Source of the DNA: a bacterium
Lineage (GTDB): Bacteria; UBP7; UBA6624
Length of the DNA: 64,000 nt
NCBI GenBank assembly: GCA_002716355.1
Contig: PBAU01000002.1
Span: forward strand, 1 to 64,000
Direction: 5' to 3'
The position numbers were made by a program, and so were the translations under genes. Positions 42,482 through 58,054 of this stretch are shown one piece after another (positions within the stretch are counted from its first letter, which is position 1; every line of letters starts with the position of its first letter). The notes under the pieces are model-generated. The model was not told where the DNA came from. It worked only from the letters and a program-made list of their open reading frames with translations, and searched no databases.

Positions 42482-43747
42482 ATGAGTCAAACATTGGTAC
42501 AAAAAATAATTGCTGAAAAATCTGAAAAAAATAATGTTAACGTCGGTGAGATCGTCATGGCTAAAGTTGATAGAGCAATGGGTCATGACATCACGGGTCC
42601 AGCTGCAGCAGCACTGCTAAGGGAGGCTGGCATCAACAAGGTTTGGAACAAAGACAAGGTTGTTCTTGTTGCCGATCATTTTGTGCCAGCTAAGGATTTG
42701 GCCGCTGCAAAGCTGGGAAAAGAGTTGAGAATTTTTGCAGAAGAGTATGAAGTGGGTCATTACTTTGGTGAAGGCAAAGGCGGAATTTGTCATGTTGTCA
42801 TGCCGGAAGAGGGACTTGTTGCTCCTGGTGAGATTGTTATTGGTGCTGATAGCCACACATGCACAAATGGAGCTGTAGGCTGTCTTGCAACCGGTGTTGG
42901 ACACACGGATCTGGCTGCAGTTTTAGCAACAGGCAAAGTTTGGTTAAGGGTTCCTGAAACCATCAAGGTTGTTTTCAAGGGTTCACCACCACCAGAGGTA
43001 ACACCTAAAGATATGTCTTTGGCTCTTGGAAAGATATTGACTGTTAGCGGTGGCAACTATAAAGTTTTAGAGCTCCATGATAATACCGATACAGGTATAG
43101 ATATGGAGGGTAGATTAACCATTTCAAACATGGCAATAGAGTGGGGTGCTAAAGCTGGAATATTTGTACCAGATGCTATTACCGAAACCTTCACACAAGA
43201 ACGCGTTCAGCATTCTGACTGGAAAATGTTGCAACCTGATGAAAATGCTTCTTACTGCCAGAAAATCACCATAGACACAACCACATTGGAACCATTGGTT
43301 GCTATGCCTTTCAGCCCTGATAATGTAACAACCGTAAGGGAGGTTGAAAAACAAAAGGTAAAAATAGACCAAGTGTTTATTGGTTCATGCACCAATGCTC
43401 GAATCGGAGATCTTAGAGAGGTTCATGGTGTTTTTAAGAACAATCCGAATAAACAAAAAAAAGTCCCTCGTGTTGTTGTTATACCCGGTGATCAAAAAAC
43501 TTACTTAACAGCAATTAGCGAAGGCATAGCAACAGAATGCATATCAAGAGGCTGTGTTTTTTCCACCCCAACATGTGGACCCTGTCTAGGGGGCCATTCA
43601 GGAGTTATGGCTGCTGAGGAGGTGTGTTTGTCCACAAGTAATAGAAACTTTCATGGAAGAATGGGTCATCCAGATTCATTGGTTTATTTAAGTTCCCCCC
43701 TTGTTGCAGCGCATTCCGCTCTTAAAGGTTATATCTCTGCACCGTAA
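42482..43747 (+). CDS. leuC: 3-isopropylmalate dehydratase / homoaconitase large subunit-like
   Basis: This is an aconitase-family hydro-lyase large subunit. It opens with TLVQKIIAEKS and has the GADSHTCTNGAVGCLATGVG block, IGSCTNARIGDLRE (first cluster Cys) and TPTCGPCLGGHSG (the other two cluster Cys), so its [4Fe-4S] site is intact. At 421 residues it is the archaeal/bacterial LeuC2/HacA type. No small subunit is adjacent, so LeuD is probably elsewhere. ATG 42482 lies 2 codons after the dehydrogenase stop. It could pair with the LeuA-like enzyme at 22888-24246. Confidence 0.88.
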   Translation: MSQTLVQKIIAEKSEKNNVNVGEIVMAKVDRAMGHDITGPAAAALLREAGINKVWNKDKVVLVADHFVPAKDLAAAKLGKELRIFAEEYEVGHYFGEGKGGICHVVMPEEGLVAPGEIVIGADSHTCTNGAVGCLATGVGHTDLAAVLATGKVWLRVPETIKVVFKGSPPPEVTPKDMSLALGKILTVSGGNYKVLELHDNTDTGIDMEGRLTISNMAIEWGAKAGIFVPDAITETFTQERVQHSDWKMLQPDENASYCQKITIDTTTLEPLVAMPFSPDNVTTVREVEKQKVKIDQVFIGSCTNARIGDLREVHGVFKNNPNKQKKVPRVVVIPGDQKTYLTAISEGIATECISRGCVFSTPTCGPCLGGHSGVMAAEEVCLSTSNRNFHGRMGHPDSLVYLSSPLVAAHSALKGYISAP

Positions 43748-44365
43748 TTGAAAACTATTTTTCACAATTTTCAACAAAAAAGCTGGATAGACAGTTACTA
43801 CCTGCAGCTACAAGCTACTGAGGATGCTAGAAGGAATGTCGAACATGTATTTTTTTTTGAACATAAAAATGTTATCACCTTAGGAACATCTTCAACCAAA
43901 AGTGATATACCAAATACAGCCAATATTAGGCGTAAAAATATTAGTATTTTTAAAACAAACAGAGGTGGTGAAGCAACCTGGCATGGTGCCGGACAACTTG
44001 TTTTTTATCCAGTTTTAAACATAAAGAAAAGACGGATCAAAGCAACAGAGTTAGTGAAAATAGTGTTACAAGCAACACAAGATGCATTGTTAAAAAAACA
44101 AATTGAAACCTCTATAAACCTCAAGAAACCTGGCTTGTATATTCAAAATAAGAAAATCGTTTCTTTCGGCATGACGATTCAAAAAGGGATAACCATGCAT
44201 GGCGTGTCAGTGAATGTGAACAACAATAATAAAGGATTTGCAGAAATCAAACCTTGTGGGATGCCGCCAAACACTGTTTCTTCCATCAAAGCTGAAACAG
44301 GTAGCAATGAAAGTATAGAATCAATTGCTCAAGAGGTTAAGCTTCATTTGAAAAAGATTTTATGA
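43748..44365 (+). CDS. lipB: Octanoyl-[acyl-carrier-protein] transferase LipB, TTG start
   Basis: LipB transfers octanoate to E2/GcvH lipoyl domains. Family blocks are FFEHKNVITLGTSS, TNRGGEATWHGAGQLVFYPV (the RGG..T.HGPGQ motif), KIVSFGMTIQKGITMHGVSV with the catalytic Lys region, and PCGM with the catalytic Cys. The length of 205 residues is normal. TTG directly follows the LeuC stop. It overlaps lipA by 4 bases. lipB-lipA upstream of the E1-E2-E3 genes supplies their cofactor. Confidence 0.96.
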   Translation: MKTIFHNFQQKSWIDSYYLQLQATEDARRNVEHVFFFEHKNVITLGTSSTKSDIPNTANIRRKNISIFKTNRGGEATWHGAGQLVFYPVLNIKKRRIKATELVKIVLQATQDALLKKQIETSINLKKPGLYIQNKKIVSFGMTIQKGITMHGVSVNVNNNNKGFAEIKPCGMPPNTVSSIKAETGSNESIESIAQEVKLHLKKIL

Positions 44366-45204
44366 CACAACATCCTAATTGGACAAAGATTCAAATCAAG
44401 CCTGGTTCTACAAAATCTCTCATTGACCTTTTTGCTGAACCGGAAGAGTTTAAGATAACCACTGTTTGCGAAGAGGCATGTTGTCCCAATTTGCCAGAAT
44501 GCTGGGGCAAGGGTACAGCCACATTTATGTTGCTTGGAGATACCTGCACAAGAGGTTGTCGTTACTGTTCGGTCAAAAAAGGAATACCTGAACCACCTGA
44601 TCCCAATGAACCCGGGGATTTAGCTGAAACCATTCAAAAAATGAATGCAAAATACATTGTTTTAACAATGGTTGATAGAGATGATCTGATCGATGCCGGT
44701 GTCAGTCACATCATGGACACGGTAAACTCTATAAAGAGAATCAACCCCACAACAAAAATAGAATTACTTGTGGGTGATCTGAATGGTGAACCTGAGCTGA
44801 TTAAAGAGGTTGCCCAATCAAACATAAATGTTTTTTCTCACAATATTGAAACTGTAGAAAGGTTGTATCCAAAACTAAGACCACAAGGCAGTTACCAACG
44901 CGCATTAAAAGTTTTAAGAGAGGCAAAAAAAACAGGTTGCCAAACAAAAACTAGCCTGATTGCCGGGATGGGGGAAACAACAGACGAGGTACTGTCTTTT
45001 TTGAAGGATATTAAAACGATTGAAGTGGATATTTTTACATCAGGACAATACTTGAGACCGTCACAAAACCAAGCACCGGTTATAAAACATCGCAGTCCAG
45101 AATGGTTTGAATTTATTGAACAGCAAGCAGAAATGTTAGGGATTAAATCCAAGTGCGGACCCCTGGTAAGATCCAGCTACATGGCTGAAACTCTATATAA
45201 ATAA
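44362..45204 (+). CDS. lipA: Lipoyl synthase LipA
   Basis: This radical-SAM enzyme inserts two sulfurs into octanoyl groups. The auxiliary cluster ligands are in CEEACCPNLPEC, the SAM-cluster motif is CTRGCRYC (C-x3-C-x2-C), and the C-terminal auxiliary-cluster serine is in RSSYMAE. Other blocks are GTATFMLLG and VFSHNIETVERLYP. The length of 280 residues is normal. Its iron-sulfur ligands are all intact, in contrast to the Hdr-like operon 6 kb downstream. Confidence 0.98.
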   Translation: MTQHPNWTKIQIKPGSTKSLIDLFAEPEEFKITTVCEEACCPNLPECWGKGTATFMLLGDTCTRGCRYCSVKKGIPEPPDPNEPGDLAETIQKMNAKYIVLTMVDRDDLIDAGVSHIMDTVNSIKRINPTTKIELLVGDLNGEPELIKEVAQSNINVFSHNIETVERLYPKLRPQGSYQRALKVLREAKKTGCQTKTSLIAGMGETTDEVLSFLKDIKTIEVDIFTSGQYLRPSQNQAPVIKHRSPEWFEFIEQQAEMLGIKSKCGPLVRSSYMAETLYK

Positions 45205-45233
45205 TACCCCCCCAGGGTATAGTTATTTTTTTT
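45204..45233 (+). terminator. Possible intrinsic terminator or attenuator between lipA and E1alpha
   Basis: ATACCC (45204-45209) and GGGTAT (45215-45220) form a 6-bp stem with a 5-base loop, closely followed by an eight-T run. Just beyond, GTTATTTTTTT and AAAAAAATAAC (45222-45244) make an 11-bp inverted repeat. The stem is short, so termination may be partial. Confidence 0.4.
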
Positions 45234-45245
45234 AAAAAAATAACA

Positions 45246-45251
45246 TATAAT
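45246..45251 (+). promoter_or_regulatory. Perfect -10 hexamer (TATAAT) close to the E1alpha ATG
   Basis: TATAAT ends 8 bases before the ATG at 45260, and no Shine-Dalgarno is visible there. Initiation 6-8 bases downstream of the hexamer would give a nearly leaderless mRNA. The -35 position falls in a T-rich stretch and is weak. Confidence 0.4.
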
Positions 45252-45259
45252 TACCAGTT

Positions 45260-46399
45260 ATGAATTCGAAAAAAATAAATCAGAAACAAAAAAAATCATT
45301 TGGGGTCGATCAACAAACAGCATTTGAAGTTCTGTATCATCCATTATTGAAAGCCAGGTTGCTTGACGAAAGAATGGTCAAGCTTTTTAATCAAGGTAGA
45401 TTTGGTGGTACATATTTTAGTGGTTGTGGTCAAGAGGCAACAAATGTTGGTGCAGGTGTTCACATGGTTGAAGGTGACATACTTGCTCCATCACATAGGC
45501 AACTAGGGGCCATGGTTGCTAGAGGTATAACCGCTAAAAGAGTGTTAGCACAAGTTTATTCAACAGCTGAATCGCCAGATGGAGCTCAGCAGCACCCATG
45601 TCACTTTGGAGACCCGGAACTTGATATTGTTAGTCCCACAGGACATGTGGCGATACAGGTTGTTTTAGCTGCAGGTTCAGCCTACGCATATCTTTTAGAT
45701 GCGTACAGAAAAGGCGATGTGAAAATCAATTGGGACAAAGATGGAATCGTATGGGCTGGAAACTGGACGCTTAAAAAGGGATCCAAGCTCAATTGCGCTT
45801 TTGCATTTTTTGGAGATGGCGCAACAGCAAAAGGGGATTTTCATGAGTCTGTGAATTTTGCTGGAATACACAAATTACCAGTAATTTACATGGCTGAAAA
45901 TAATATATGGGCAGAGTCTGTTCACGTTACCGAGAATGTGCCTGTTGAGAGGTTAAGCGATAGAGCAGCTGCATATGGAATGCCCGGAGTTACTGTTGAT
46001 GGTCAGAATGTTTTTGAGGTTTATCACGCAGTGCAGGAGGCAGTTGAACGTGCTCGCTCTGGTGGCGGGCCAACCCTTGTTGAATGCTTGACTTATCGTT
46101 ACCATGGACATTCCATGATTGATCCAGCTGATTATCGAACAGATGAAGAGGTTGAAAAATGGAAAAAGAGAGATCCTTTAATTGTTTTTGAACAGGTAGC
46201 TAAAGAGGATGGGATTTGGAGCGATAAACTCGCAAAGGAAACAGAAGACAGAATCAATAATGAGATTGAAGAGGCGATTGATTGGGTTGAAGATGAATCA
46301 ACTAAACCCAAACCCGATCAATTCATTGATGTAACCTTTAGAGATCCAAAATTTAATGATGCAATTCGCAAGAGATGGGAGAAGAGAAAAAATGTCTAG
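45260..46399 (+). CDS. 2-oxo acid (pyruvate-type) dehydrogenase E1 component, alpha subunit
   Basis: The ThDP-binding motif is FFGDGATAKGDFHESVNFAG through MAENN, followed by YRYHGHSMIDPADYRTDEEV (the phosphorylation-loop region in eukaryotic homologues). The length of 379 residues fits heterotetrameric E1 of the pyruvate or branched-chain complex; the substrate cannot be resolved. It is the first gene of E1alpha-E1beta-E2-E3. The next ATG overlaps its stop by 8 bases. Confidence 0.93.
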   Translation: MNSKKINQKQKKSFGVDQQTAFEVLYHPLLKARLLDERMVKLFNQGRFGGTYFSGCGQEATNVGAGVHMVEGDILAPSHRQLGAMVARGITAKRVLAQVYSTAESPDGAQQHPCHFGDPELDIVSPTGHVAIQVVLAAGSAYAYLLDAYRKGDVKINWDKDGIVWAGNWTLKKGSKLNCAFAFFGDGATAKGDFHESVNFAGIHKLPVIYMAENNIWAESVHVTENVPVERLSDRAAAYGMPGVTVDGQNVFEVYHAVQEAVERARSGGGPTLVECLTYRYHGHSMIDPADYRTDEEVEKWKKRDPLIVFEQVAKEDGIWSDKLAKETEDRINNEIEEAIDWVEDESTKPKPDQFIDVTFRDPKFNDAIRKRWEKRKNV

Positions 46400-47423
46400 T
46401 AAAAATATTAGTTATATCCAGGCAATTACAGACACAATGTGGTCTGAAATGGAAATTGATGAAACGGTTTTTGTCTTAGGTCAAGATTGTGGAAGATATG
46501 GAGGCGTGTTTAAAGCCACAGCCTGGAGGTCGGAAAAAGACGGCAAACCTGATTTAAGTAAAAAAATGTATGATGAATTTGGACCATTGAGAGTTCTTGA
46601 TGCACCTTTGGCAGAAAATGCAATCATCGGTGGTGCAATTGGTGCCGCTTTGTCTGGTTATAGGCCAATTGCTGAGATTCAATTTATGGATTTTATTGAT
46701 TGTGCTATGGGCCATATCGTGAACCAAGCAGGCACTATCTCTTTTAAGACTAATGGTAGTTGGTGTTGCCCAATTACAATTCGCACCCCTTATGGTGGAG
46801 GTATTGGCGGTGGTATGACCCATAGCCAAAGCAATGAAGCTTGGTTTTGTCATGCTGGTGGTCTAGTTGTAACCGCACCCAGCACACCAAGAGATGCAGC
46901 AGGGCTTTTAAGATCCTGCATTAGGGCAGATGATCCTTGTGTGTATATTGAGCACAAAGGTTTATATCGAGCTATAACTGGTGATGTGCCTGATGATCCC
47001 AACTTCACTATTGAATTAGGAAAAGGAAAAGTTGTTCGAGAGGGTAGTGATATTACATTGATTTCTTATGGCGCCATGTTGCACAAATGCTTAAGTGTTG
47101 CAGAAAAACTTGAATCTGAAGGCGCCAGTGTTGAGATTATTGATCCTCGAACATTATGGCCAATGGATGAAGATTTAATGATTAACTCTGCTTGTAAAAC
47201 AGGCAGGTGTGTGGTTGTTGCTGAGTCACATGCGGCGTATGGTTTCACTAGCGAGGTTGCCGCAAGAGTGCAAGAGGGTGCCTTTTGGAACCTATTAACA
47301 CCAATTCGTACTATTGCAGGACCAGACACACCCTTCCCTTTTGAACCGGGAATGGAGGCTGCTTATCTGCCTTCAGATGATGAAATATACAACTCTTGTA
47401 AAAGAGCGTTGGGGGACGGATAA
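46392..47423 (+). CDS. 2-oxo acid dehydrogenase E1 component, beta subunit
   Basis: This is the transketolase-like partner of E1alpha. It has EMEIDETVFVLGQDCGRYGG, DAPLAENAIIGGAIGAALSG, EIQFMDFIDCAMGHIVNQAG, RTPYGGGIGGGMTHSQS and VEIIDPRTLWPMDEDLM. I use ATG 46392 (MSSKNISYIQAITDTMWSEM), preceded by a GAAGAG Shine-Dalgarno. An upstream ATG at 46356 would run far into E1alpha. The resulting protein is 343 residues. Confidence 0.94.
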   Translation: MSSKNISYIQAITDTMWSEMEIDETVFVLGQDCGRYGGVFKATAWRSEKDGKPDLSKKMYDEFGPLRVLDAPLAENAIIGGAIGAALSGYRPIAEIQFMDFIDCAMGHIVNQAGTISFKTNGSWCCPITIRTPYGGGIGGGMTHSQSNEAWFCHAGGLVVTAPSTPRDAAGLLRSCIRADDPCVYIEHKGLYRAITGDVPDDPNFTIELGKGKVVREGSDITLISYGAMLHKCLSVAEKLESEGASVEIIDPRTLWPMDEDLMINSACKTGRCVVVAESHAAYGFTSEVAARVQEGAFWNLLTPIRTIAGPDTPFPFEPGMEAAYLPSDDEIYNSCKRALGDG

Positions 47424-48661
47424 TGCCAATTAAAGTTCCAGTTCCCGATCTAGGTGTTTCTGTTGTTGAAGCCAAAGTGGCCGAATGGAAGAAAAAAATA
47501 GGTGATGATGTTGTTCGTGATGAAGAGATTGGTATATTGGAAACAGACAAGATAACAACCCCAATTACAGCATTCAAAGAAGGGAAACTTGTAGCACTTT
47601 TTGCAAAACCTGGGGATACCGTTCCCGTGGGACAAACTATAGCAATTATCCAAAAAGTTGGAGAAAATTTATCCCAAGAAGATATTGATAAGTTGAATCC
47701 ACATGGTTCAAAACCGACACCGGAACCGACACCGGAACCGACACCGGAACCCATTAAAACAACTGTTGACACCAAACGTCAAGGCTCAAATCCCCAAACC
47801 CTTAAAACCAGTCCAGCTGTTAGAAGGTATGCGAGTGAGAATGACATTAACCTGGTTGATGTTCAAGGCACTGGCTCTAATGGAAGAATCCAAATGGCTG
47901 ATGTTTTAGCGTTTAAAAAACCAATCAAATCTACGGGTTTAAATTTAGAACCTGATAATACTGAATCCAGAAGTCCTGTCAGCAGCTCCATGGCTGTTAT
48001 GGCAAAACATATGGTTCACTCAGTGTCAACCAGCCCGCATTTTTTAATTGTTGATGAACTTGACATGACTGAAACATTGGCTGTATATAAGAATTTAAAA
48101 CCAAAATTGCAAGAAAGCGGAATCAGGTTAACACTCATGAGCTTTTTTGTCAGAGCAGCAGCACAAGCGCTTAAGGATTTTCCAAGAATGAATGTTTCTC
48201 TTGAAAAAGACACTTTGATAACCAAGAATTATAGAAATATAGGAATGGCAGCTAGTGTTGGGGAAAGTTTGATAGTGCCTGTTATCAAGAATGCTGATCT
48301 TTTAAATATTGAAAATCTTGCAGCTGAAATCAACAGATTGTCTATTGCCGCTCAGGAAAACAAATTAACAATGCAAGACATTACAGGTGGAACATTCACA
48401 ATCACCAATGCAGGCATGTTTGGAGGCCCGTTATTTTCAGCACCTATTATCAATCAGCCTGAAGCGGCTATATTGGGTATTCACACAGTGAAAGAAAGAG
48501 CTGTTGTTGAGAATGGAAATATTGTTGTAAAACCAATGGTTTATGTATCCCTTTCAAGTGATCACAGAATGGTAGATGGCGTTTTAGCTGTTAGGTTTTT
48601 ATGCAGGGTTAAAGAGTTGCTTCAGCATCCAGGCTTAATGGCAACTGGACCTCTTTTATGA
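47423..48661 (+). CDS. Dihydrolipoamide acyltransferase (E2 component)
   Basis: Residues 1-75 form one lipoyl domain, with the lipoylated Lys 43 in ILETDKITTPI. A repetitive Pro-Thr-Glu linker is followed by a peripheral-subunit-binding domain (AVRRYASENDINLVDVQGTG, approx. residues 132-165) and the catalytic core, which ends with the active site SLSSDHRMVDGVLAVRFL. At 412 residues it is a normal one-lipoyl E2. The ATG overlaps the E1beta stop by one base, and the E2 stop overlaps the E3 ATG. Confidence 0.95.
   Translation: MPIKVPVPDLGVSVVEAKVAEWKKKIGDDVVRDEEIGILETDKITTPITAFKEGKLVALFAKPGDTVPVGQTIAIIQKVGENLSQEDIDKLNPHGSKPTPEPTPEPTPEPIKTTVDTKRQGSNPQTLKTSPAVRRYASENDINLVDVQGTGSNGRIQMADVLAFKKPIKSTGLNLEPDNTESRSPVSSSMAVMAKHMVHSVSTSPHFLIVDELDMTETLAVYKNLKPKLQESGIRLTLMSFFVRAAAQALKDFPRMNVSLEKDTLITKNYRNIGMAASVGESLIVPVIKNADLLNIENLAAEINRLSIAAQENKLTMQDITGGTFTITNAGMFGGPLFSAPIINQPEAAILGIHTVKERAVVENGNIVVKPMVYVSLSSDHRMVDGVLAVRFLCRVKELLQHPGLMATGPLL
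47714..47749 (+). repeat. Three 12-bp tandem repeats in the E2 linker (PTPE codons)
   Basis: The unit ccgacaccggaa repeats three times in frame, giving PTPE x3 between the lipoyl and subunit-binding domains. Such repeats lengthen the swinging arm and are prone to copy-number change. Confidence 0.95.
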
Positions 48662-50034
48662 AATATGACTTGGTTGTGATAGGTGCTGGCCCAGGTGGCT
48701 ATGTGTGTGCTTTACGGGCAGCACAACTCGGCTTAAAGGTAGCTGTTGTTGAAAAGAAAAAAGCGGGTGGAACATGTTTGAATGTTGGTTGCATACCATC
48801 TAAAGCTTTATTGGATTCAACAGAAATTTTTTCTGAAATTTCACCAGGGAACGAACATGGAATAGAGGTCAGCAAAGCTAACATTAACTGGTCGACCCTG
48901 CAATCCAGAAGGGAAAAAATTGTTACCCAATTAACAGGTGGTGTTGAATTTCTTTTAAAAAAGGCTAAGGTTGATTATTATCAAGGATTTGCAGATGTGA
49001 AATCTTGTTATACGGTTGTTGTTGGCAGGAATAATCTTGCAACTAAAAATGTTGTTTTGGCCACCGGATCCACACCTGTAGAAATTCCATTTTTGCCATT
49101 TGATGGAGAACATGTTATAAGTTCAACCGAAGCTCTTAATCAATTCAATATACCCAAAAGTCTTATTGTTGTTGGAGGAGGTTATATAGGGTTAGAAATG
49201 GCCAGTGTTTACAGCCGAATCGGAACCCATGTCACAGTAATTGAGATGATGGATCGGATTGTTCCATTGATGGATACAGATATAAGCAAGCAGTTGCAAA
49301 AATCATTAAGAAAACAAGGCATCAAGTTTAAAACATCAACCAAGGTGACCGATTGCAAGAAAACAAAAAATAAAATTATTTTAAATTTAGAAAAAAACAA
49401 AAAAACAAGCACACAGGAGGCTGATCAAGTTCTTGTTGCTGTAGGTCGTCGGCCTAATGCAGGGGGTATTAACCTCAATGCTTTAGGAGTCACAATGGAT
49501 GAGAGGGGGTTTGTTTCTGTAAATCAAAACATGGAAACATCCATACCTGGTATTTATGCCATAGGCGATTTGGTTCCAGGTCCCATGCTTGCACATAAAG
49601 CCAGTGAGGAAGGGGTGGTTGTTGCCGAAAGAATTGCTGGCAAGCAAACAACACTTGACTATAGCTTGATTCCATCTGTAGTTTACACACACCCTGAAGG
49701 CGCTTCTATTGGTAGAACCGCAGATGAGCTTAAAAAAGCCAACGTAGAATTTAAAACAGGTATGTTTCCGTTTTCTGCATCCGGAAGAGCTATGGCTATA
49801 GGTTGTACTGAAGGTTTTGTTAAGGTGTTAGCAGATTCCAAAACCGATAAGGTTTTAGGGGTCCATATATTAGGGCCGAAAGCTTCAGAATTAATATCTG
49901 AAGCAGCAATGGTGATGGGCTTCTGTGGCACTGCTGAAGACATAGGTGTGTTTATTCACGCGCACCCAACACTTTCGGAAGCATTAAAAGAAGCCGCTCT
50001 TGAAGCTTCTGGTCATGGTGCGATTCATACCTAA
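48658..50034 (+). CDS. lpdA: Dihydrolipoamide dehydrogenase (E3)
   Basis: This flavoprotein disulfide reductase reoxidises dihydrolipoamide with NAD+. FAD binding is VIGAGPGGYVCALRAAQLG, the redox disulfide is GGTCLNVGCIPSKAL, the NAD site is VVGGGYIGLEMASVYSRIG, the second FAD motif is IYAIGDLVPGPMLAHKA, and the base is in FIHAHPTLSEAL. The length of 458 residues is normal. Confidence 0.98.
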   Translation: MKYDLVVIGAGPGGYVCALRAAQLGLKVAVVEKKKAGGTCLNVGCIPSKALLDSTEIFSEISPGNEHGIEVSKANINWSTLQSRREKIVTQLTGGVEFLLKKAKVDYYQGFADVKSCYTVVVGRNNLATKNVVLATGSTPVEIPFLPFDGEHVISSTEALNQFNIPKSLIVVGGGYIGLEMASVYSRIGTHVTVIEMMDRIVPLMDTDISKQLQKSLRKQGIKFKTSTKVTDCKKTKNKIILNLEKNKKTSTQEADQVLVAVGRRPNAGGINLNALGVTMDERGFVSVNQNMETSIPGIYAIGDLVPGPMLAHKASEEGVVVAERIAGKQTTLDYSLIPSVVYTHPEGASIGRTADELKKANVEFKTGMFPFSASGRAMAIGCTEGFVKVLADSKTDKVLGVHILGPKASELISEAAMVMGFCGTAEDIGVFIHAHPTLSEALKEAALEASGHGAIHT

Positions 50035-50044
50035 GGAGAAAACA

Positions 50045-50224
50045 ATGTTTGGATTTATTTTTGCTTTAGGACCAACAGAAATTGCTTTAATTGCAGTTGT
50101 TGTTTTGGTTCTTTTTGGACCCAAAAAAGTTACAGAATTCGCAAGATCTCTAGGAAGAACTAGTGGTGAATTCAAAAAAGGACTTGAAGAGGGTAAAAAG
50201 ACAACAAAAGATAAAGAGGAGTAA
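50045..50224 (+). CDS. tatA: Twin-arginine translocase subunit TatA
   Basis: This 59-residue protein has a short N-terminal membrane helix (LGPTEIALIAVVVLVLF), the FGPKK hinge, an amphipathic helix (VTEFARSLGRTSGEFKKGLE) and a charged tail. These are the TatA/E hallmarks. The start is ATG 50045, preceded by an AGGAG Shine-Dalgarno (50034-50038) that overlaps the E3 stop. No separate TatB is visible in the window. Confidence 0.95.
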   Translation: MFGFIFALGPTEIALIAVVVLVLFGPKKVTEFARSLGRTSGEFKKGLEEGKKTTKDKEE

Positions 50225-50233
50225 AGCTGCTGT

Positions 50234-50944
50234 ATGCAAGACAAAAAAATGCCTCTGTCCGAGCATTTTGCTGATCTGCAAAAAACTTTATTAAACAGTC
50301 TTCTTTATTGTTTTTTTGCCTCTGTTTTGCTGTCCTTTTTTCATAAGGAATTATTAATTGCTTTTCAAAAACCACTAAACAATGTCGGAATTACTGCGTT
50401 AAATGTTTTATCTCCACAAGAGGGGTTCCTCATCCCCATCAAGTTGGTTTTAATGTGTGGTTTAATTGTGGCAACACCTTTGATTGTTAGAGAGGTTACC
50501 TTATTTGCCTGGCCCGCATTAAGGCAAAATGAAAAACAAATACTTCAAACTTTTGTAATCCCAAGTTTTTTAATTGCACTTGTTGCAGCGTTTTTTGCTT
50601 GGCAGGTTTTAATACCAATATCAATTGAATTTCTGCTCAAGGCAACAACAAACAATAACCTACAAGCAACATGGACATTGCAATATTGGTTTGTTTTTGT
50701 TCAATCTATGTTGATTGCCTCTGTGGCTGCTTTTCAACTGCCAATAGTCATGGGGGTTTTAGCTAAATTCGGCTTAATTGACTCACATACGGTCCGGGAA
50801 AAAGGCCCACATGCAATTATTGGGCTATTGATATTATCTGGTTTTATAACCCCTCCAGATGTTGTCACGCAGATCATTATCGCCATACCATTAATCCTTC
50901 TGTTTTATTTCAGTATTTTCATAGTCAAGGCAAACGAGGATTAA
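50234..50944 (+). CDS. tatC: Sec-independent translocase TatC
   Basis: This six-helix protein recognises twin-arginine signals. It opens PLSEHFADLQKTLLNSLLYC (the 'HLxELRxR' segment), has NVLSPQEGFLIPIKLVLMCG with the conserved Glu of the periplasmic cap, and ends GFITPPDVVTQIIIAIPLILLFYFSI. The length of 236 residues is normal. It lies 9 bases after tatA. Confidence 0.96.
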   Translation: MQDKKMPLSEHFADLQKTLLNSLLYCFFASVLLSFFHKELLIAFQKPLNNVGITALNVLSPQEGFLIPIKLVLMCGLIVATPLIVREVTLFAWPALRQNEKQILQTFVIPSFLIALVAAFFAWQVLIPISIEFLLKATTNNNLQATWTLQYWFVFVQSMLIASVAAFQLPIVMGVLAKFGLIDSHTVREKGPHAIIGLLILSGFITPPDVVTQIIIAIPLILLFYFSIFIVKANED

Positions 50945-51001
50945 ATCTAAAATTAATTCAGGTTTTTCAATAGAATTAAAAAGTTGTAGATTTGTACAAA
51001 T

Positions 51002-51006
51002 GGAGG
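51002..51006 (+). promoter_or_regulatory. Strong Shine-Dalgarno (GGAGG) before the Hdr-like operon
   Basis: GGAGG lies 7 bases before the ATG at 51014, the best spacing. It supports active translation of the first gene of the operon. Confidence 0.8.
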
Positions 51007-51013
51007 AAAAATT

Positions 51014-53335
51014 ATGGCACGAATAGGTGTTTTTCTTAGCAAAGAGGGAAAAGGTTTAGATCCGCTTAACCTACAAACCATTGCTGACAGATTGGTTGAG
51101 GAAGTGCAGGAGATAAACCATGTTTTTATACATGAAGACCTCAACACAGTTCAAGGTTTGGAAGCAATATCACAAGAGATCAAAAATCAAGATATTGGCT
51201 ATGTTGTTATCGGTTGTGGCTCTATTGATCAAAGGGAAGAGAATATCAGAAAAACATTGAATACAGCTGGCATTAACGAATACCTTTTGGAGGTTGTTAA
51301 TCTTAAAGAAATGGTAGCTAACGTGCATTCAGAAGAGCCCGAGAAAGCCAATGAAAAAGCTTTTCAGCTATTGAAAACAGCAGTTATCAAGGTTGAGCAA
51401 AGTAAACCTTTAGAAAAAACACCAATGAGGGTGGAACAACAAGTTTTAGTTGTTGGCGGCGGTGTTGCAGGCATGACTGCTTCTTTGAGAATTGCAGATG
51501 CTGGCTACAGTGTTGTTTTAGTTGAAAAGTCACCTGCATTAGGTGGAAAAGTTGCCTCTCTCAAAAATCTTTGGCCAAAACTCGAAGAGGCAGATGACTT
51601 AATGAGGAATCTTTCAATCAGTTGTCATCAACATGAAAATATAGTTATTTATGATTATTCAGAAGTTAAATCTATAGACGGAGTTCGTGGGGATTTTGAT
51701 GTTGAAATAGTCAGAAAACCAAGATTTGTTCAAAGTCAAAAAATTGTAAATTTTGAAAAAATTACAGAATCATTAAAAACGGATTTTCCAAATAAGCACA
51801 CCGGAGGCAGGACGGTGAACAAGGTTCTTTATCAACCATACGCAGGCTGTGTCCCACCATTGTTTTTGATAGACCCAGAAAATATAAATCATCCAGATGT
51901 CAAAAAGTTAATCACACTTGTTCCTGATGGAACTGTGAATCAGAACGAAAAGGAAAAAATCGTTCATGAAAAAGCAGGTGCTGTGATTATGGCTTTTGGA
52001 GCTGGGATGATGGATTGTTCTGGCTTAACAAATTTAACTGCTGCAAATAGTGAAAATGTACACAGTGCTAGTGATTTTGAATTTTTGAATTTCAAAAAAG
52101 ACGAAGAAATGTCGTTGTTATGGGTTGCAGATGCAGGAAGCAATGATCCCAAGAACGGTGTTGCTTACGCTTCCGAAGTGCCTTTGATGACCTGTGTCAA
52201 ACAGGCTATTTTTGCTAAAAAAATGTCTAATGGAAAAATTCACACAACAGTTGTTTACTCAGATAGGAGATCCAGAACAAAAGGATATGAAGAATTTATC
52301 AAAACCGCTGAGGAAAAATACCAGGTACAGATGGTTAGAGGCGCTGTTTCAAATGTAACTTCAAAGTCAAACGGGTTGTCTGTCAGCTTGCACGATTTAA
52401 TACAGGGCAAAGAGCAAAAGGTATCAGTTGACAAGGTTGTTTTGGCACAAGAGGTTGTTGCACACGATGATTCACAACATCTAGCAAGTATTGTTGATAT
52501 AGGTCGTGACGAAACAGGCTTTCTTGCTGAAACCCATCCTTCTCTGGAGCCATGTTCAACCAGTAATTCTGGAGTTTTTGTTTGTGGAGACTGTGCGTCT
52601 CCCGGTGATATCAGAGCTGCTGTTTTGACAGCTGAATCAGCAGTTGCTAAAGCTATGGCCGTTTTGGCCCAAAAAACAAGTGAGCCCTACAGGTTAAAAC
52701 AAAAAGATGAGCAACTTGCACGATTTGATGCTCCAGCAAAAGAGGTTTCTCCTGAGAGCTTTCAAACAAATGATGAAGGTGGCATGAATTACACAAGATT
52801 AAATAATGTTTTTGGTAAAACTGAAAGCGGTGTGTCCATACCAGCCTCACCAACCAGAAACATTGAACTTGCTGGTTGGGAGCTTTCTAAGTCAATTGCA
52901 GAAATTGAAAATATTTGGACAGATGCAAAAAATGACAACTGGGAACCAAGAATAACAGGATTTGCATCACAGTATGGTGGTTATCCACTTTTGGAAACAC
53001 TTGGAAGAGAGGAGGTTTCTTATTCATCTTGTTTTAGATTTCTGAGAGTGCGCTCAACAGCACATCTGGATCCACTCCTTGTCCTCAAAAGCTTCTTTAA
53101 TGGTGCAGATGGTGTGTTTATTATTGGTGGACCTTTAGGCAAAGGCAAGTTTCACAACGACAACTACCTTGCAAAAAGAAGATTTAAAGCATTAGAAGGG
53201 GTGCTTGATGCTGGTGGGATTGAGCCAGATAGAGTCAAGATTTTATTTGTAGATTCTCACCAAATTGATGAAGTTGCTGATCAGTTGCAAAAATTCCATA
53301 ATGCTGTCTCTAGCTTAGGCCCTTTAGGTATTTGA
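51014..53335 (+). CDS. HdrA-MvhD-like fusion protein lacking iron-sulfur ligand cysteines
   Basis: The domain order follows heterodisulfide reductase subunit A fused to an MvhD/FlpD-type C terminus. The FAD site is preserved: VLVVGGGVAGMTASLRIADAG (144-164), VVLVEKSPALGGKVA, and a second FAD motif near SGVFVCGDCASPGDIRAAV. The cluster sites are gone. The N-terminal RIGVFxCHCG is RIGVFLSKEG (3-12), and the FPTxDCxxC region is LWPKLEEADDLMRNL (186-200). The ferredoxin CTGCGxC is KIVNFEKITESL (243-254), and the second ferredoxin region (~575-610) has no Cys. In the MvhD part C-x-W-C-S-Y is FASQYGGY (650-657), and GCHPGDCHY is GGPLGKGKFH (705-714). Only 9 Cys remain in 773 residues, and just one pair (C524, C527) is close together, not at a known cluster site. 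Confidence 0.82.
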   Translation: MARIGVFLSKEGKGLDPLNLQTIADRLVEEVQEINHVFIHEDLNTVQGLEAISQEIKNQDIGYVVIGCGSIDQREENIRKTLNTAGINEYLLEVVNLKEMVANVHSEEPEKANEKAFQLLKTAVIKVEQSKPLEKTPMRVEQQVLVVGGGVAGMTASLRIADAGYSVVLVEKSPALGGKVASLKNLWPKLEEADDLMRNLSISCHQHENIVIYDYSEVKSIDGVRGDFDVEIVRKPRFVQSQKIVNFEKITESLKTDFPNKHTGGRTVNKVLYQPYAGCVPPLFLIDPENINHPDVKKLITLVPDGTVNQNEKEKIVHEKAGAVIMAFGAGMMDCSGLTNLTAANSENVHSASDFEFLNFKKDEEMSLLWVADAGSNDPKNGVAYASEVPLMTCVKQAIFAKKMSNGKIHTTVVYSDRRSRTKGYEEFIKTAEEKYQVQMVRGAVSNVTSKSNGLSVSLHDLIQGKEQKVSVDKVVLAQEVVAHDDSQHLASIVDIGRDETGFLAETHPSLEPCSTSNSGVFVCGDCASPGDIRAAVLTAESAVAKAMAVLAQKTSEPYRLKQKDEQLARFDAPAKEVSPESFQTNDEGGMNYTRLNNVFGKTESGVSIPASPTRNIELAGWELSKSIAEIENIWTDAKNDNWEPRITGFASQYGGYPLLETLGREEVSYSSCFRFLRVRSTAHLDPLLVLKSFFNGADGVFIIGGPLGKGKFHNDNYLAKRRFKALEGVLDAGGIEPDRVKILFVDSHQIDEVADQLQKFHNAVSSLGPLGI

Positions 53336-53338
53336 AAC

Positions 53339-54232
53339 ATGAATGAAATGAGAATAACAATCCAACGAGAAGCCAGAAGGCTTTTACAGCTGCAAAAAGT
53401 CAGCGTTGTTATAGGTTATGAGGTTGGTCCATACCCTGGCACGACCGCTCCCTGTTTCGCTTTCACCCCAGATGACGCTCAAAGAATTGTTTTCAATAGC
53501 TTTTCGTCTATCAATTTAGCCGTTTATCTTCCAGGCATTACTGGAAATGTTGGCATAGTGGCCACACCTGCAACTGTAAGATCCATCAAAGAGCTCGAAA
53601 AAGACGGCTTGGTGAATCGTAAAAATCTGCATATTATTGGTGTGAAATTTCCAGGAATATTAGATCCTCGACATTTAAATGTTGACAGAGAGAACGAAAA
53701 TACGTTATCAGTCAATGAGCATCCAGAAGCTTTATGGGAGTGGGCACTTCATGATCTTTACGAGGAGCCAGAAGATTATGACATACTTGTTGAGCCCAGG
53801 TGGATGAATGACCTCAGTAAAGCCGGCAAACTAAAAAAACCCACCCCAAACCGTACCAGCGTTGAAAGGTTAGAGCAGATGACTCATCACGAAAGAAGGC
53901 TATACTGGATGAGTTATTTTGAAAAACATAGGCATTCAGACCATAATAAAAATTTATTTCCTTCCACTTATGCGGGAGGAGACCATTTAGAAAAGTTTAA
54001 ATATATCAAATCTGCATATAGCTCGAACGAGCTTTTTTACGAACATCTTTCATGGGTTTACCAATCGATGGGTCGAGCTTCTGGCTTCGATCTCTCAGAC
54101 CTTACAGAGGACATGAATCAAATACCCCTTTCAACAATTCGAGCTTGGGCTGCTAGAGAGTTTAGAAAAAATTTTAATTACAGGCCAGGTGGGGAAGAGC
54201 CAAATCCATTACTGAAAAAGGAAAACATATAA
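53339..54232 (+). CDS. FrhB/HdrB-associated iron-sulfur protein homologue with all ligands lost
   Basis: The fold pattern is that of the FrhB-like dicluster subunits beside HdrA in anaerobes: RRLLQLQKVSVVIGYEVG, VRSIKELEKDGLVNRKNLHI, and VERLEQMTHHERRLYWMSYF just before the first cluster. Where those have RCxRCYACRNACPLCYC, this one has KHRHSDHNKNLFPSTYA (196-212). Where they have GRCVDCGACERACPxGIPL, it has GRASGFDLSDLTEDMNQIPL (245-264). GVPCxGM is GVKFPGI. One Cys (C39) remains in 297 residues. The gene is intact and starts 3 bases after the HdrA-like stop. Confidence 0.75.
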   Translation: MNEMRITIQREARRLLQLQKVSVVIGYEVGPYPGTTAPCFAFTPDDAQRIVFNSFSSINLAVYLPGITGNVGIVATPATVRSIKELEKDGLVNRKNLHIIGVKFPGILDPRHLNVDRENENTLSVNEHPEALWEWALHDLYEEPEDYDILVEPRWMNDLSKAGKLKKPTPNRTSVERLEQMTHHERRLYWMSYFEKHRHSDHNKNLFPSTYAGGDHLEKFKYIKSAYSSNELFYEHLSWVYQSMGRASGFDLSDLTEDMNQIPLSTIRAWAAREFRKNFNYRPGGEEPNPLLKKENI

Positions 54233-54233
54233 C

Positions 54234-55256
54234 ATGAGCGACTATATTTTGTCAAAAGCTAAATTGAAATATTGGTTAGAGGATGTCAGAAAACGAAATG
54301 AACTATGGGCACCCGTTGGATCCAAAGGCGCTGTAAGTTATTTGAAAAATCCAAAAGGTGAAAATGTTGCAACAGATTTTACAAATAGTTTGGATTGTCC
54401 AAAGTATATATTTTGCCCACAGCAAGATGCCATATGCAACTATGAGATACAAGGAAGAGGCAAGGTTGCTATTGAGGAAGTTGAGCTCGATGTGACTCCT
54501 AGAGTTGTATTTGGCTTACGGCCACCAGACATTAGAGGCATCGAAATTCTCGATGCTTACCTGTTGAAAGATCAAATTGATCGGAGATACGAGGCAAGGC
54601 GAAAAAATACAATAAATATTTGTCTTGGTTACCATAACCCACCTCCTTGCTGTTTCGCAGAGTCTGTAGGTGTCGATCTTTTTCCCAAGAGTGGCTCTGA
54701 CATTTTGTTAACTGATATTGGTAGGAGTTATTATGTTGAAACACTTTCTGAAAAAGGAGATAGCCTGATCTCGGAACATTTCAATGAAGCTGATGATATT
54801 GTTCGAAATGAAGCCTGGGATATACAGAAGGGAAGTGAAGGAAAAACAAATTTTGATTTAAATTTGAATCGTTGGCAGGATTTCACTGATACTGAAATTT
54901 ACACTTTGCCGTATTGGGATGAAATTTATTTGGGCATTATTGCTGATTCTGTCGCAACCAGGTATTTTTACTCAGGAACTTATTTTAAGATTGTTGATGT
55001 TAACAGTGGAAACAAGGGCACAAGGTATAAAACCTGGACAACAATGTATTCTCCAGGCTTTTCAACATTGGCAAATGGTTATGACTACAAGCCAAGCCTC
55101 AAGGAAAAATTTAAAGATTGGATATTAGAAATGTTTCATTTTTTTCCAAAAAGACATGGTTTTATTGGCTGTTCAGGTGCGCACAGGTGCATTGCAGGCA
55201 TGACCACCAAGCATGACCTGAGAAAAATTATTTCTAATGTGGACTTTGGAATATGA
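54234..55256 (+). CDS. HydB / anaerobic sulfite reductase A-like protein, cluster ligands mostly lost
   Basis: This resembles the 4Fe-4S dicluster beta subunits of sulfhydrogenase and AsrA (~340 residues). GIRPCDARAI is GLRPPDIRGI (94-103), and the ITEKGxxLL-type block is ETLSEKGDSLI (169-179). The first ferredoxin, CLGCGxCTxVCPTCYCFDI, is YLGIIADSVATRYFYSGTYF (232-251) with no Cys. RxWDSCMFPxF is KTWTTMYSPGF. The second ferredoxin keeps two of four ligands: GCSGAHRCIAGMTTKHDL (312-329), with C313 and C319. The length is conserved at 340. It is one base from the previous stop, and its stop overlaps the next ATG. Confidence 0.75.
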   Translation: MSDYILSKAKLKYWLEDVRKRNELWAPVGSKGAVSYLKNPKGENVATDFTNSLDCPKYIFCPQQDAICNYEIQGRGKVAIEEVELDVTPRVVFGLRPPDIRGIEILDAYLLKDQIDRRYEARRKNTINICLGYHNPPPCCFAESVGVDLFPKSGSDILLTDIGRSYYVETLSEKGDSLISEHFNEADDIVRNEAWDIQKGSEGKTNFDLNLNRWQDFTDTEIYTLPYWDEIYLGIIADSVATRYFYSGTYFKIVDVNSGNKGTRYKTWTTMYSPGFSTLANGYDYKPSLKEKFKDWILEMFHFFPKRHGFIGCSGAHRCIAGMTTKHDLRKIISNVDFGI

Positions 55257-56029
55257 ATTTAGTACCAAAGATAGCAAATATAAAAAATACAGAACGGGAT
55301 GGTCGTTTAGGGTCAATATCATTTGATTTTGATGGGGACCTGAAGGCCGGACAGGTTTTCAAGATAGGGACCTTTGGAAAAGGAGAAACAACTGCTTGGG
55401 TCATAGATGCGGAAGATAAAACCGTAACCGTTTCGTTTCTGGATAACAACCCTGTCACACATAAAATCATGCTCCTTCCCACAGATGAATGCATTACTGT
55501 AAGAGGGCCATTTGGCAATGGTTTTTCACTTTTAGATGAAAGAAATATTTTATTAATTAGTCAAGATGATGGAATATTAAGCCAAAAGAAACTTATTAAT
55601 GATTTGCTCCAAAATGGTAATCAGGTCAGCTTGCTCCACTTCACCTCTTTTCCAAAAGATATATTTATGAGCTCTTCACTTAAAAAAGCTGTATCAGATG
55701 ACTCTCCTATCAATGGTGAAATTATCGATATGACAAAAAAAGGACCACAGGATTTAGATACGTTTATCAAATCTTGCATCAAGGCAAGTTACACCTCCGG
55801 AATAAACGCAGTGGCTCTATCAGGCAATGAGAATTTTCAGCAGTCTGTGTCGAGGGTTCTGGAGAAAACAATGATTAAAGATAAAAGCATACAAATTTTA
55901 TTTAATCGTAATTTTGTTTCAGGAATGGGTTGGTCTAACAAGGATCTTTACGGTACCACAAACATATGGAAAGAAGGGCCAGTATTTACATTAGATCAGG
56001 TTCGAAGATTCCCAGGTGTATTCATTTAA
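55253..56029 (+). CDS. HydG/AsrB-like flavoprotein homologue lacking the [2Fe-2S] ligands
   Basis: This matches the ferredoxin-reductase-like gamma subunits (258 residues, family ~270). GDxVGVRGPYGNGFP is DECITVRGPFGNGF (78-91), and the C-terminal C-D-GPVF-like end is WKEGPVFTLDQV (239-250). The [2Fe-2S] motif CGVGxCGxC...C is VSGMGWSNKDLYGTTNIW (222-239) with no Cys. The FAD motif RxYSxSS is AWVIDA, and the NAD GGxGxAP motif is SQDDGILS, so the flavin and nucleotide sites are also eroded. It shares ATGA with the upstream gene and overlaps the convergent rsmA by 8 bases. Confidence 0.72.
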   Translation: MNLVPKIANIKNTERDGRLGSISFDFDGDLKAGQVFKIGTFGKGETTAWVIDAEDKTVTVSFLDNNPVTHKIMLLPTDECITVRGPFGNGFSLLDERNILLISQDDGILSQKKLINDLLQNGNQVSLLHFTSFPKDIFMSSSLKKAVSDDSPINGEIIDMTKKGPQDLDTFIKSCIKASYTSGINAVALSGNENFQQSVSRVLEKTMIKDKSIQILFNRNFVSGMGWSNKDLYGTTNIWKEGPVFTLDQVRRFPGVFI

Positions 56030-56795
56030 TACTGCTATTTTTTGACAGCATCATTCCTAGTTCAGGATCAATGTCTTCGGCCCGAAAGCCATCAGGTATC
56101 CTTTCCAGCGTGCCATCAGGCACAAAACCCCTCAGTAGCTTTTTGGCATTCTTCCTTCTTTGAGAGAATATTTTTTTATTTAATTGCAAATATTGATATG
56201 AATATTGAAAATCCTCCGTTTTTTCCTTATTCGTTAAGGTGATAATCGCACTGTCAATTTTTGGTTTTGGAAAGAATGCATTTTTTGAAATTTTTTTTTC
56301 AATCTTACATGAATAAAAAAATTGCAATGGCCCAGAAAGAAGACCGTATGATTTAGAGCTGGTTTGAGAGCAGATGCGCTCGGCAACTTCTTTTTGAACG
56401 GTGAATATGGCGTTTTTTATCTTTTCTGGCCATCTTGCAACCAGCCATAAAATTCTCCCTGAAAGATAGTAAGGCAAATTGCCTACCAGCATGCCATTAT
56501 TTTCAGCATTTTCAGGTTGCCATTTTCGAACATCCGTCTCGATGTTGATTGATGGAAATTTGTTTTTTAAAAAGGAATTGAGGTGTTCGTCAACCTCATA
56601 AACAGTTAGTCTATTTCTATAGGATATTTTTTCTGTTAGGAAGCCCAGGCCACCGCCAATTTCAATTGTCCAGTCACTTTCTTTTTCTTTAATTATGTTT
56701 GACAAAAAATCAAGATTTGACTTATTTGTCATGAAGTTTTGACCACGATGTTTTTTGGGTGGATGATTACGGAAGTAATCAATCGCTAGCGACAT
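56022..56795 (-). CDS. rsmA: 16S rRNA dimethyladenosine transferase RsmA (KsgA)
   Basis: RsmA dimethylates A1518/A1519 of 16S rRNA. It has HRGQNFMTNKSNLDFL, the SAM motif TIEIGGGLGFLTEKI, the catalytic VGNLPYYLSGRIL (NLPY) and a C-terminal helical domain with FFPKPKIDSAIITL and QRRKNAKKLLRG. The length of 257 residues is normal. Rossmann and NLPY residues are intact. Confidence 0.97.
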   Translation of the reverse strand: MSLAIDYFRNHPPKKHRGQNFMTNKSNLDFLSNIIKEKESDWTIEIGGGLGFLTEKISYRNRLTVYEVDEHLNSFLKNKFPSINIETDVRKWQPENAENNGMLVGNLPYYLSGRILWLVARWPEKIKNAIFTVQKEVAERICSQTSSKSYGLLSGPLQFFYSCKIEKKISKNAFFPKPKIDSAIITLTNKEKTEDFQYSYQYLQLNKKIFSQRRKNAKKLLRGFVPDGTLERIPDGFRAEDIDPELGMMLSKNSSIK

Positions 56796-56819
56796 TAAAC
56801 TTTTTTCAGATTGGCTTAT

Positions 56820-57035
56820 TTAGACTTCCTCGTAGAGGATTAATGCACCCGATACAAACATTGGGGTCCTAACATCATCTTCTTTTGACGCATCCATGGT
56901 TACACTAGAGCCATATTTGATGTCAATAATTTTTACTTTAGATTTGTTTGCCTTTAACCACTCGTTGATTTCTCGATCAAGCGGGGGTGTTCTATAGCTC
57001 CCTAAGCTAGATTCCATAAAATGTTTTACTTTCAT
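56820..57035 (-). CDS. Small soluble protein of unknown function
   Basis: Starting at ATG 57035, this 71-residue protein has LDREINEWLKANKSKVKIID, a strand-like IKYGSSVTM and a hydrophobic C terminus (VSGALILYEEV). This resembles small DUF proteins whose members end in an IIYE strand. No function can be given. It lies 24 bases upstream of rsmA on the same strand. Confidence 0.5.
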   Translation of the reverse strand: MKVKHFMESSLGSYRTPPLDREINEWLKANKSKVKIIDIKYGSSVTMDASKEDDVRTPMFVSGALILYEEV

Positions 57036-57130
57036 AAGCAAATCTTAATTCCAAAAACAAACAAACCTAACCCAAGAACAGCAGATTCAAAAATTAATAT
57101 CTAATTATTCAGATATAAAATTAAAAATAT

Positions 57131-58054
57131 ATGAATCGTTTAAAAAGCATAAATCTACGTTTTTTGTTGATGCCCTTTGTTCTGGCTTTTATTTTTGCTT
57201 TTGAGGATATTGACACTAAAGAGAAGTCAAGCGAGGAGTTATGGGTTGTAAATTTTTTAGCTGAAGGAGTGGTTTTACCACCCGGTCAGATAGATTTGCC
57301 AAAAATAACTATCGATTACACAAAAACTGACCATGCCAAAATTGCTAAGAATCTTTTGGGTGCAGACATAGAGGCAGAAACCTCTGTCGGTTTAACCAGA
57401 GTTATCGATCAGGGTTTTCAAACATATGCAACCGAGGACGGCCGAGAATTATTGGTTTTTCCTCATGGTGGAATCACATTTAACCATCCTTTTGCCGGGG
57501 TGCATGAGTTGTTCCCATTAACCCGCACACAGGCAGAAAGTGTTCTGGATATTTTTAATAACAATTTTAATTATTTTCCAGAAGATGCCTCACTGGTCAA
57601 TACAGGAGAAATTAAACATCCAGAATATCAGTCTTTCAACAACAGTCAAGGATTACCGTTTGGTTACATTTATGAATATGGGCGTTATTTTAAAAATGTT
57701 CTCATTAAAAATGATGTAGTCAGGGCTTTAGTGGTTGGCGGAAGAGTTTGGGAATTTTCATTTTCCTGGGGCGATCAGCCTGTTGAGATTGAAGACACTG
57801 AGGCAACAATAATCCCAGCATGGTCTGCAGTTAAGGATGCCATCGAGTATGCGTATAGGAATTTTTACGCTGGAGAATATTACGCAGATGTATTTGTTAC
57901 CAAGGTTCAACTTGTTTATACTTTTGATGGCCTACAGGAGGCATGGAAAAAGGATGAACCAAAAAGATTAGTTCCGGCATGGGTGGTCCAGATAAATAAA
58001 TCGAATGAAATTATCTTAGAAGCTTTCACCGGTCAAGTTATTCCCATTTATTAA
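57131..58054 (+). CDS. Exported or anchored protein of unknown function
   Basis: The N terminus has one hydrophobic segment (LRFLLMPFVLAFIFAF), probably a signal anchor. The ~280-residue outer part is acidic and beta-rich. The C terminus, LVPAWVVQINKSNEIILEAF followed by TGQVIPIY, resembles the closing strands of PepSY/YycI-like domains, but I cannot assign a family. A TATAAA hexamer lies 11 bases before the ATG, without a Shine-Dalgarno. Its stop overlaps the likely ATT start of glycerate kinase. Confidence 0.6.
   Translation: MNRLKSINLRFLLMPFVLAFIFAFEDIDTKEKSSEELWVVNFLAEGVVLPPGQIDLPKITIDYTKTDHAKIAKNLLGADIEAETSVGLTRVIDQGFQTYATEDGRELLVFPHGGITFNHPFAGVHELFPLTRTQAESVLDIFNNNFNYFPEDASLVNTGEIKHPEYQSFNNSQGLPFGYIYEYGRYFKNVLIKNDVVRALVVGGRVWEFSFSWGDQPVEIEDTEATIIPAWSAVKDAIEYAYRNFYAGEYYADVFVTKVQLVYTFDGLQEAWKKDEPKRLVPAWVVQINKSNEIILEAFTGQVIPIY

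Follow-up and report, generated by a model that had tools for sequence, protein, structure and literature searches.

A possible cluster-free, flavin-retaining descendant of an FlxABCD-HdrA type complex in the bacterial lineage UBP7

The UBP7 locus described here shares HdrA, MvhD (FlxD), a ferredoxin-type subunit and HydB/AsrA-like and HydG/AsrB-like subunits with the FlxABCD-HdrABC complex, the NADH dehydrogenase/heterodisulfide reductase of the anaerobes Desulfovibrio, Bilophila and Syntrophomonas and the presumed parent type (PMC6687939, PMC12125255), unlike which it has neither Fe-S ligand sets nor the NAD and FAD motifs of the entry subunit, and its host is aerobic. A second relative is the HdrA-MvhD fusion HdrA2 of Methanosarcina acetivorans (PMC5296606), with the same domain order including the fused MvhD; the UBP7 protein differs in having no cluster ligands and no HdrB2C2. 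In the ANME archaea, HdrA paralogues have kept the FAD residues and lost some cluster cysteines or domains, and tandem HdrA proteins were proposed to complement these partial losses (PMC9012536), whereas in UBP7 the loss is complete, spans four subunits and concerns a single HdrA. The sHdrA of sulfur oxidisers (6tjr, Hyphomicrobium), a Foldseek match, also combines a FAD-binding HdrA core with an aerobic organism, but the UBP7 operon has no sHdr gene set and its HdrA is full-length and carries the MvhD tail. Finally, the beta and gamma subunits of Pyrococcus furiosus sulfhydrogenase I (9nez, 9nf0) match two of the UBP7 subunits, beta by fold (TM 0.85) and gamma by a weak sequence match, with the difference that the UBP7 beta clusters and the gamma FAD, NAD and [2Fe-2S] motifs are gone and that hydrogenase subunits are missing. 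The open-licence papers that we found describe no fully stripped complex.

The locus lies in a window of 64,000 nucleotides (contig PBAU01000002.1 of assembly GCA_002716355.1, positions 1 to 64,000), where four genes follow one another on the same strand, the last three (53339-56029) spaced by no more than 3 bases or slightly overlapping:

51014-53335, plus strand: HdrA-MvhD fusion protein of 773 aa, with no Fe-S ligand set and with the FAD site kept
53339-54232, plus strand: 297-aa subunit, homologue of the ferredoxin-type subunit in intact Flx-like operons, cluster cysteines 0/16
54234-55256, plus strand: sulfhydrogenase-beta/AsrA (HydB)-like subunit, here called beta, cluster cysteines 3/15
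55253-56029, plus strand: sulfhydrogenase-gamma/AsrB (HydG)-like subunit, here called gamma, FAD, NAD and [2Fe-2S] motifs lost

The three downstream genes are, judged by alignment, homologues of the other Flx-type subunits and make up a complete FlxABCD-type partner set, and the order of the four genes is that of the intact operons of L034, L035, L043 and L044. No hdrB or hdrC gene was found in the UBP7 operon, and the CCG (HdrB) domain is absent from two genomes (G000 and G002), which are incomplete and whose unassembled parts could encode partners; a 348-aa protein with two CCG domains (L117/L118, G001:C44) occurs in the second UBP7 genus only, unlinked to the operon. A promoter scan of 43500-57200 gave sites no more numerous than in shuffled sequence.

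The product of 51014-53335 has HdrA2 as its top NCBIfam model, matched over the full length with an E value of 3.7e-116, and stays below the curated NCBIfam cut-off of the HdrA equivalog (389 vs 1100 bits). Pfam places FAD folds at residues 143-229 and a FlpD/MvhD domain at residues 647-769 (PF02662, 85 bits vs a cut-off of 22.3), and the nearest PDB sequences are the HdrA and the MvhD of 5odc. An AlphaFold2 model (mean pLDDT 76.5, pTM 0.59) was matched by Foldseek to 5odc_A with a TM of 0.75 of the target, that is, an HdrA fold, and its TrxR-like FAD domain bears the GGGxAG and VEK...GG motifs expected of an HdrA. The FAD site comprises the following elements:

51455-51475, plus strand: GGGVAGM dinucleotide-binding (FAD) motif, residues 148-154
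51521-51556, plus strand: VEKSPALGGKVA, FAD ribose/pyrophosphate region, residues 170-181
52079-52081, plus strand: Glu356, in an invariant column, counterpart of E356 at the flavin N5 in the HdrA of M. thermolithotrophicus
52199-52201, plus strand: Lys396, by alignment the counterpart of K409 at the flavin N5

Within the first two elements, G148, G150 and G153 as well as E171, G177 and G178 are invariant across the intact and UBP7 HdrA sequences, and G520 and G525 are further FAD-site invariants that the window HdrA has kept. In the M. thermolithotrophicus enzyme, the residues at the flavin N5 are E356 and K409 (PMC12054007), the latter being the lysine of CCMYAMK in the PDB alignment, which matches K396, and hence the N5-facing glutamate and lysine are both kept in the window protein. 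We suggest keeping the weight of this pair modest, given that 52% of the near-invariant residues are kept anyway and the retention of E356 and K396 is by itself weak evidence. The FAD loop of the UBP7 HdrA carries a TrxR-like "GD" (GDC, 525-527) where the usual HdrA residue differs, with C524 and C527 flanking it. From the motifs and the predicted fold together, we infer that the window HdrA binds FAD.

The cysteines tell a different story from the near-invariant residues around them. When the protein was aligned with 27 intact relatives from the wider bacterial sample, counting columns with at least 90% Cys, the intact HdrA sequences showed 26 near-invariant cysteine columns, namely 4 N-terminal, 2 in the FAD domain (which may include the dimer-partner ligand), 8 in the inserted ferredoxin, 4 central and 8 in the C-terminal ferredoxin, and on nearly every one of them all 27 relatives have Cys. 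The window protein and its congener have none of the 26, and the HdrA of the second UBP7 genus has a single one (aligned to residue 575 of the window protein) and no set of four. Other near-invariant columns are kept in 59 of 113 cases vs 0 of 26 for Cys (Fisher p 8e-8). The former cluster domains are still recognizable:

51734-51940, plus strand: remnant of the inserted ferredoxin domain, residues 241-309, Cys 0/8
52703-52876, plus strand: former C-terminal ferredoxin domain, now a poorly ordered stretch (pLDDT below 50), residues 564-621, Cys 0/8
52952-53320, plus strand: MvhD/FlxD-like tail, residues 647-769, its five Cys columns now S652, G655, S681, G706 and G711

The central-cluster cysteines near K396 are now D373, A386, P390 and L391, and none of the five [2Fe-2S] ligand columns of MvhD has Cys in the window tail. 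The nine leftover cysteines (68, 204, 279, 335, 394, 514, 524, 527 and 673) are all off the ligand columns. The initial annotation had read the GGGVAGM and VEKSPALGGKVA motifs as intact, the N-terminal, central, ferredoxin and MvhD sites as devoid of ligands and the remaining cysteines, C524 and C527 among them, as lying away from cluster sites, and all of this is borne out. It had also placed the loss in the HdrA-like subunit, where it is real, but it does not stop there, since the next three genes are stripped too.

In these partner subunits, the 297-aa protein, for which a PDB sequence search found no relative, has lost all of its 16 cluster cysteines, and beta has kept only C140, C313 and C319; in both, the loss of Cys exceeds that of other near-invariant residues (p 2e-4 and 5e-3, respectively). 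Nearly all relatives of the two subunits from other families have full Cys sets, with 15/15 in 26 of 27 for intact beta relatives, and among the handful of sequences with low counts are fragments, for example L079, and a diverged beta, L116. The predicted structure of beta (pLDDT 89) keeps the sulfhydrogenase beta fold, with a TM of 0.85 to 9nf0_B, and thus HdrA and beta are both predicted to retain their folds. Gamma has none of its four [2Fe-2S] cysteines and lacks the GEATFCIASSPT flavin segment, the GGGIGLAPL loop and CGPP, and is not an intact NADH- and FAD-binding entry subunit with a [2Fe-2S] cluster. Over the whole complex, 63 of 66 conserved cluster cysteines are lost (HdrA 26, MvhD 5, 297-aa subunit 16, beta 12 of 15, gamma 4), and to judge from these alignments every Fe-S site is without its ligand set.

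The lineage is described as marine (PMC10834958), and the host is aerobic, with a haem-copper oxidase subunit I in 3/3 UBP7 genomes. LipA in the window keeps its cysteines, NuoH is present in 3/3 UBP7 genomes, and a complex I operon in L122 has NuoB and NuoI with their Cys motifs; thus, the organism makes Fe-S proteins, and the loss is specific to the four-gene complex. Genome-wide absence of Fe-S proteins is ruled out on these grounds, and so is a reassignment of the Cys codon, given that the replacing residues are varied and that Cys is normal elsewhere, for example in LipA. Three MAGs with the same neighbourhood likewise rule out contamination or misassembly of the locus. As separate observations, the complex I operon (L122:8180-17558, G000:C3) encodes NuoA-D and NuoH-M without NuoE, F and G, and NuoF domains were found in none of the three UBP7 genomes in which they were sought; the UBP7 complex I may be an 11-subunit form with an unknown electron donor. 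The window also encodes, at 30384-31721 on the minus strand, an outer-membrane protein that resembles porins and has an SLH domain at its N-terminus, an arrangement shared with several deep-branching diderm phyla, and an ORF at a contig start (L004:223-1065, DLTY01000002.1) fuses a CcdA-like membrane segment to the C-terminal part of PDH E2, which probably reflects chimeric assembly at the end of the contig.

The age of the loss was approached with three incomplete MAGs from two genera, that is, two independent lineages, one of them UBP7_UBA7824 (DLTY01000002.1), and the four-gene operon is present in 3/3 of them. Against the congener, dN/dS is 0.040 for HdrA, 0.020 for the 297-aa subunit, 0.033 for beta and 0.036 for gamma, with dS near or above 1 and the ratios therefore approximate; the neighbouring genes gave similarly approximate values of 0.038 (PDH E3), 0.031 (tatC) and 0.07-0.18 (some others). 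By this measure, the four genes are under strong purifying selection. Identity to the second genus is 51% for HdrA, 60% for the 297-aa subunit, 56% for beta and 37% for gamma, and the losses are alike. Since the stripped state is found in the second genus and selection is purifying, the loss is older than the split of the genera and the genes are not decaying. In the HdrA tree (midpoint rooting), the three UBP7 sequences form one clade with support 100 on a stem of 1.04 substitutions per site, which fits rapid change during the conversion followed by constraint. Among 386 sampled genomes, most families being represented by one genome or a few, the best-scoring matches from other families that we inspected nearly all have clusters, and no fully stripped complex was among them. 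On the side, the long-branched HdrA of L030 shows a mild partial loss, lacking the two Cys columns aligned to residues 192 and 195 of the window protein with the others kept, and HdrA genes of other families (L013, L015, L017 and others) contain in-frame TGA codons, which fits the known selenocysteine-containing HdrA.

Taken together, we regard it as an even call that the four genes encode a cluster-free, flavin-only descendant of an FlxABCD-HdrA type NADH-linked electron-bifurcating complex. Bifurcation needs two electron exit paths via Fe-S clusters from one flavin, and cluster ligand sets were found in no subunit; the best reading of these sequences is that the complex would no longer relay or bifurcate electrons, and it has probably been put to a new use. 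The four proteins would still form one complex, with FAD in its HdrA subunit and Fe-S clusters few or absent, in which the former relay subunits would serve as scaffold and the HdrA flavin would carry out local two-electron chemistry or redox sensing, a substrate or protein reaching it directly. We are less sure of this last function, to which we give somewhat under even confidence. The earlier proposal that the flavin still works and the cluster relay does not thus stands in its second half, as the clusters cannot assemble, and the FAD-site residues are indeed kept; that the flavin works is a conjecture, as the loss of the clusters and of the gamma cofactor motifs leaves the HdrA flavin with no recognisable electron source or sink.

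It is this missing electron path, with the gamma FAD and NAD motifs and all clusters lost, that makes a purely structural or regulatory role the main rival, in which the complex would be a scaffold only, any bound FAD would be structural, and the proteins might serve to control or tether a neighbour, for example pyruvate dehydrogenase or the Tat system. The MvhD-like tail, a former relay interface, agrees with this in being among the best conserved parts (68-80% identity between the genera at residues 651-725), and the PDH genes, tatC and the four-gene operon run in one direction in both genera. That the PDH, lipoate and tatC genes lie next to the operon hints at co-expression; however, it is no evidence of a functional link, because the two UBP7 genera are collinear over almost all of the region compared and the PDH neighbourhood is therefore unspecific. 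Moreover, a structural FAD would not need the N5-facing glutamate and lysine. We consider this role possible and lean against it.

A different fate of the cluster sites is suggested by two groups of residues in beta that are common to both UBP7 genera:

54621-54653, plus strand: C130/H134/C139/C140, candidate metal site at a former cluster site, beta residues 130-140
55155-55214, plus strand: H308/C313/H317/C319/H327, candidate metal site at a former ferredoxin site, beta residues 308-327

All nine Cys and His of beta that the genera share sit in these two former cluster segments, and H317 stands for a glycine invariant in intact relatives, so that the clusters might have been exchanged for zinc or another metal on new Cys/His sets. 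Nevertheless, conservation is general in both segments, the comparison spans just two independent lineages, and similar sets occur in none of the other three subunits, which makes the exchange improbable. That clusters are still held by other ligands or at protein-protein interfaces is less probable still: Fe-S clusters can in principle be ligated by residues other than Cys, and at one former site beta retains two Cys, but most of the replacing residues (G, A, S, I, L, V, P, F) are non-ligating and the genera differ at several columns. A leftover anaerobic complex decaying into pseudogenes in an aerobic lineage would explain why the catalytic motifs are lost from all four genes and is ruled out by intact frames, dN/dS of 0.02-0.04 and the conservation of the four genes in two genera.

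In its most far-reaching form, our preferred reading, that of a flavin-only descendant, would mean that a whole bifurcating complex was converted subunit by subunit to an iron-free machine with one flavin, possibly zinc-type sites and a new function under selection in a lineage that is aerobic and of marine type, which we hold as a tentative and somewhat unlikely proposal. Redox proteins that have lost a single cluster are known; the coordinated loss of 63 of 66 cluster cysteines over four subunits, with fold and strong selection kept, is new with respect to the literature found and the relatives sampled. Such a stripped complex separates the structural role of these subunits from their electron wiring and offers a natural experiment on the ability of the HdrA flavin to act by itself, and it may show the rebuilding of an anaerobic enzyme for life with oxygen.
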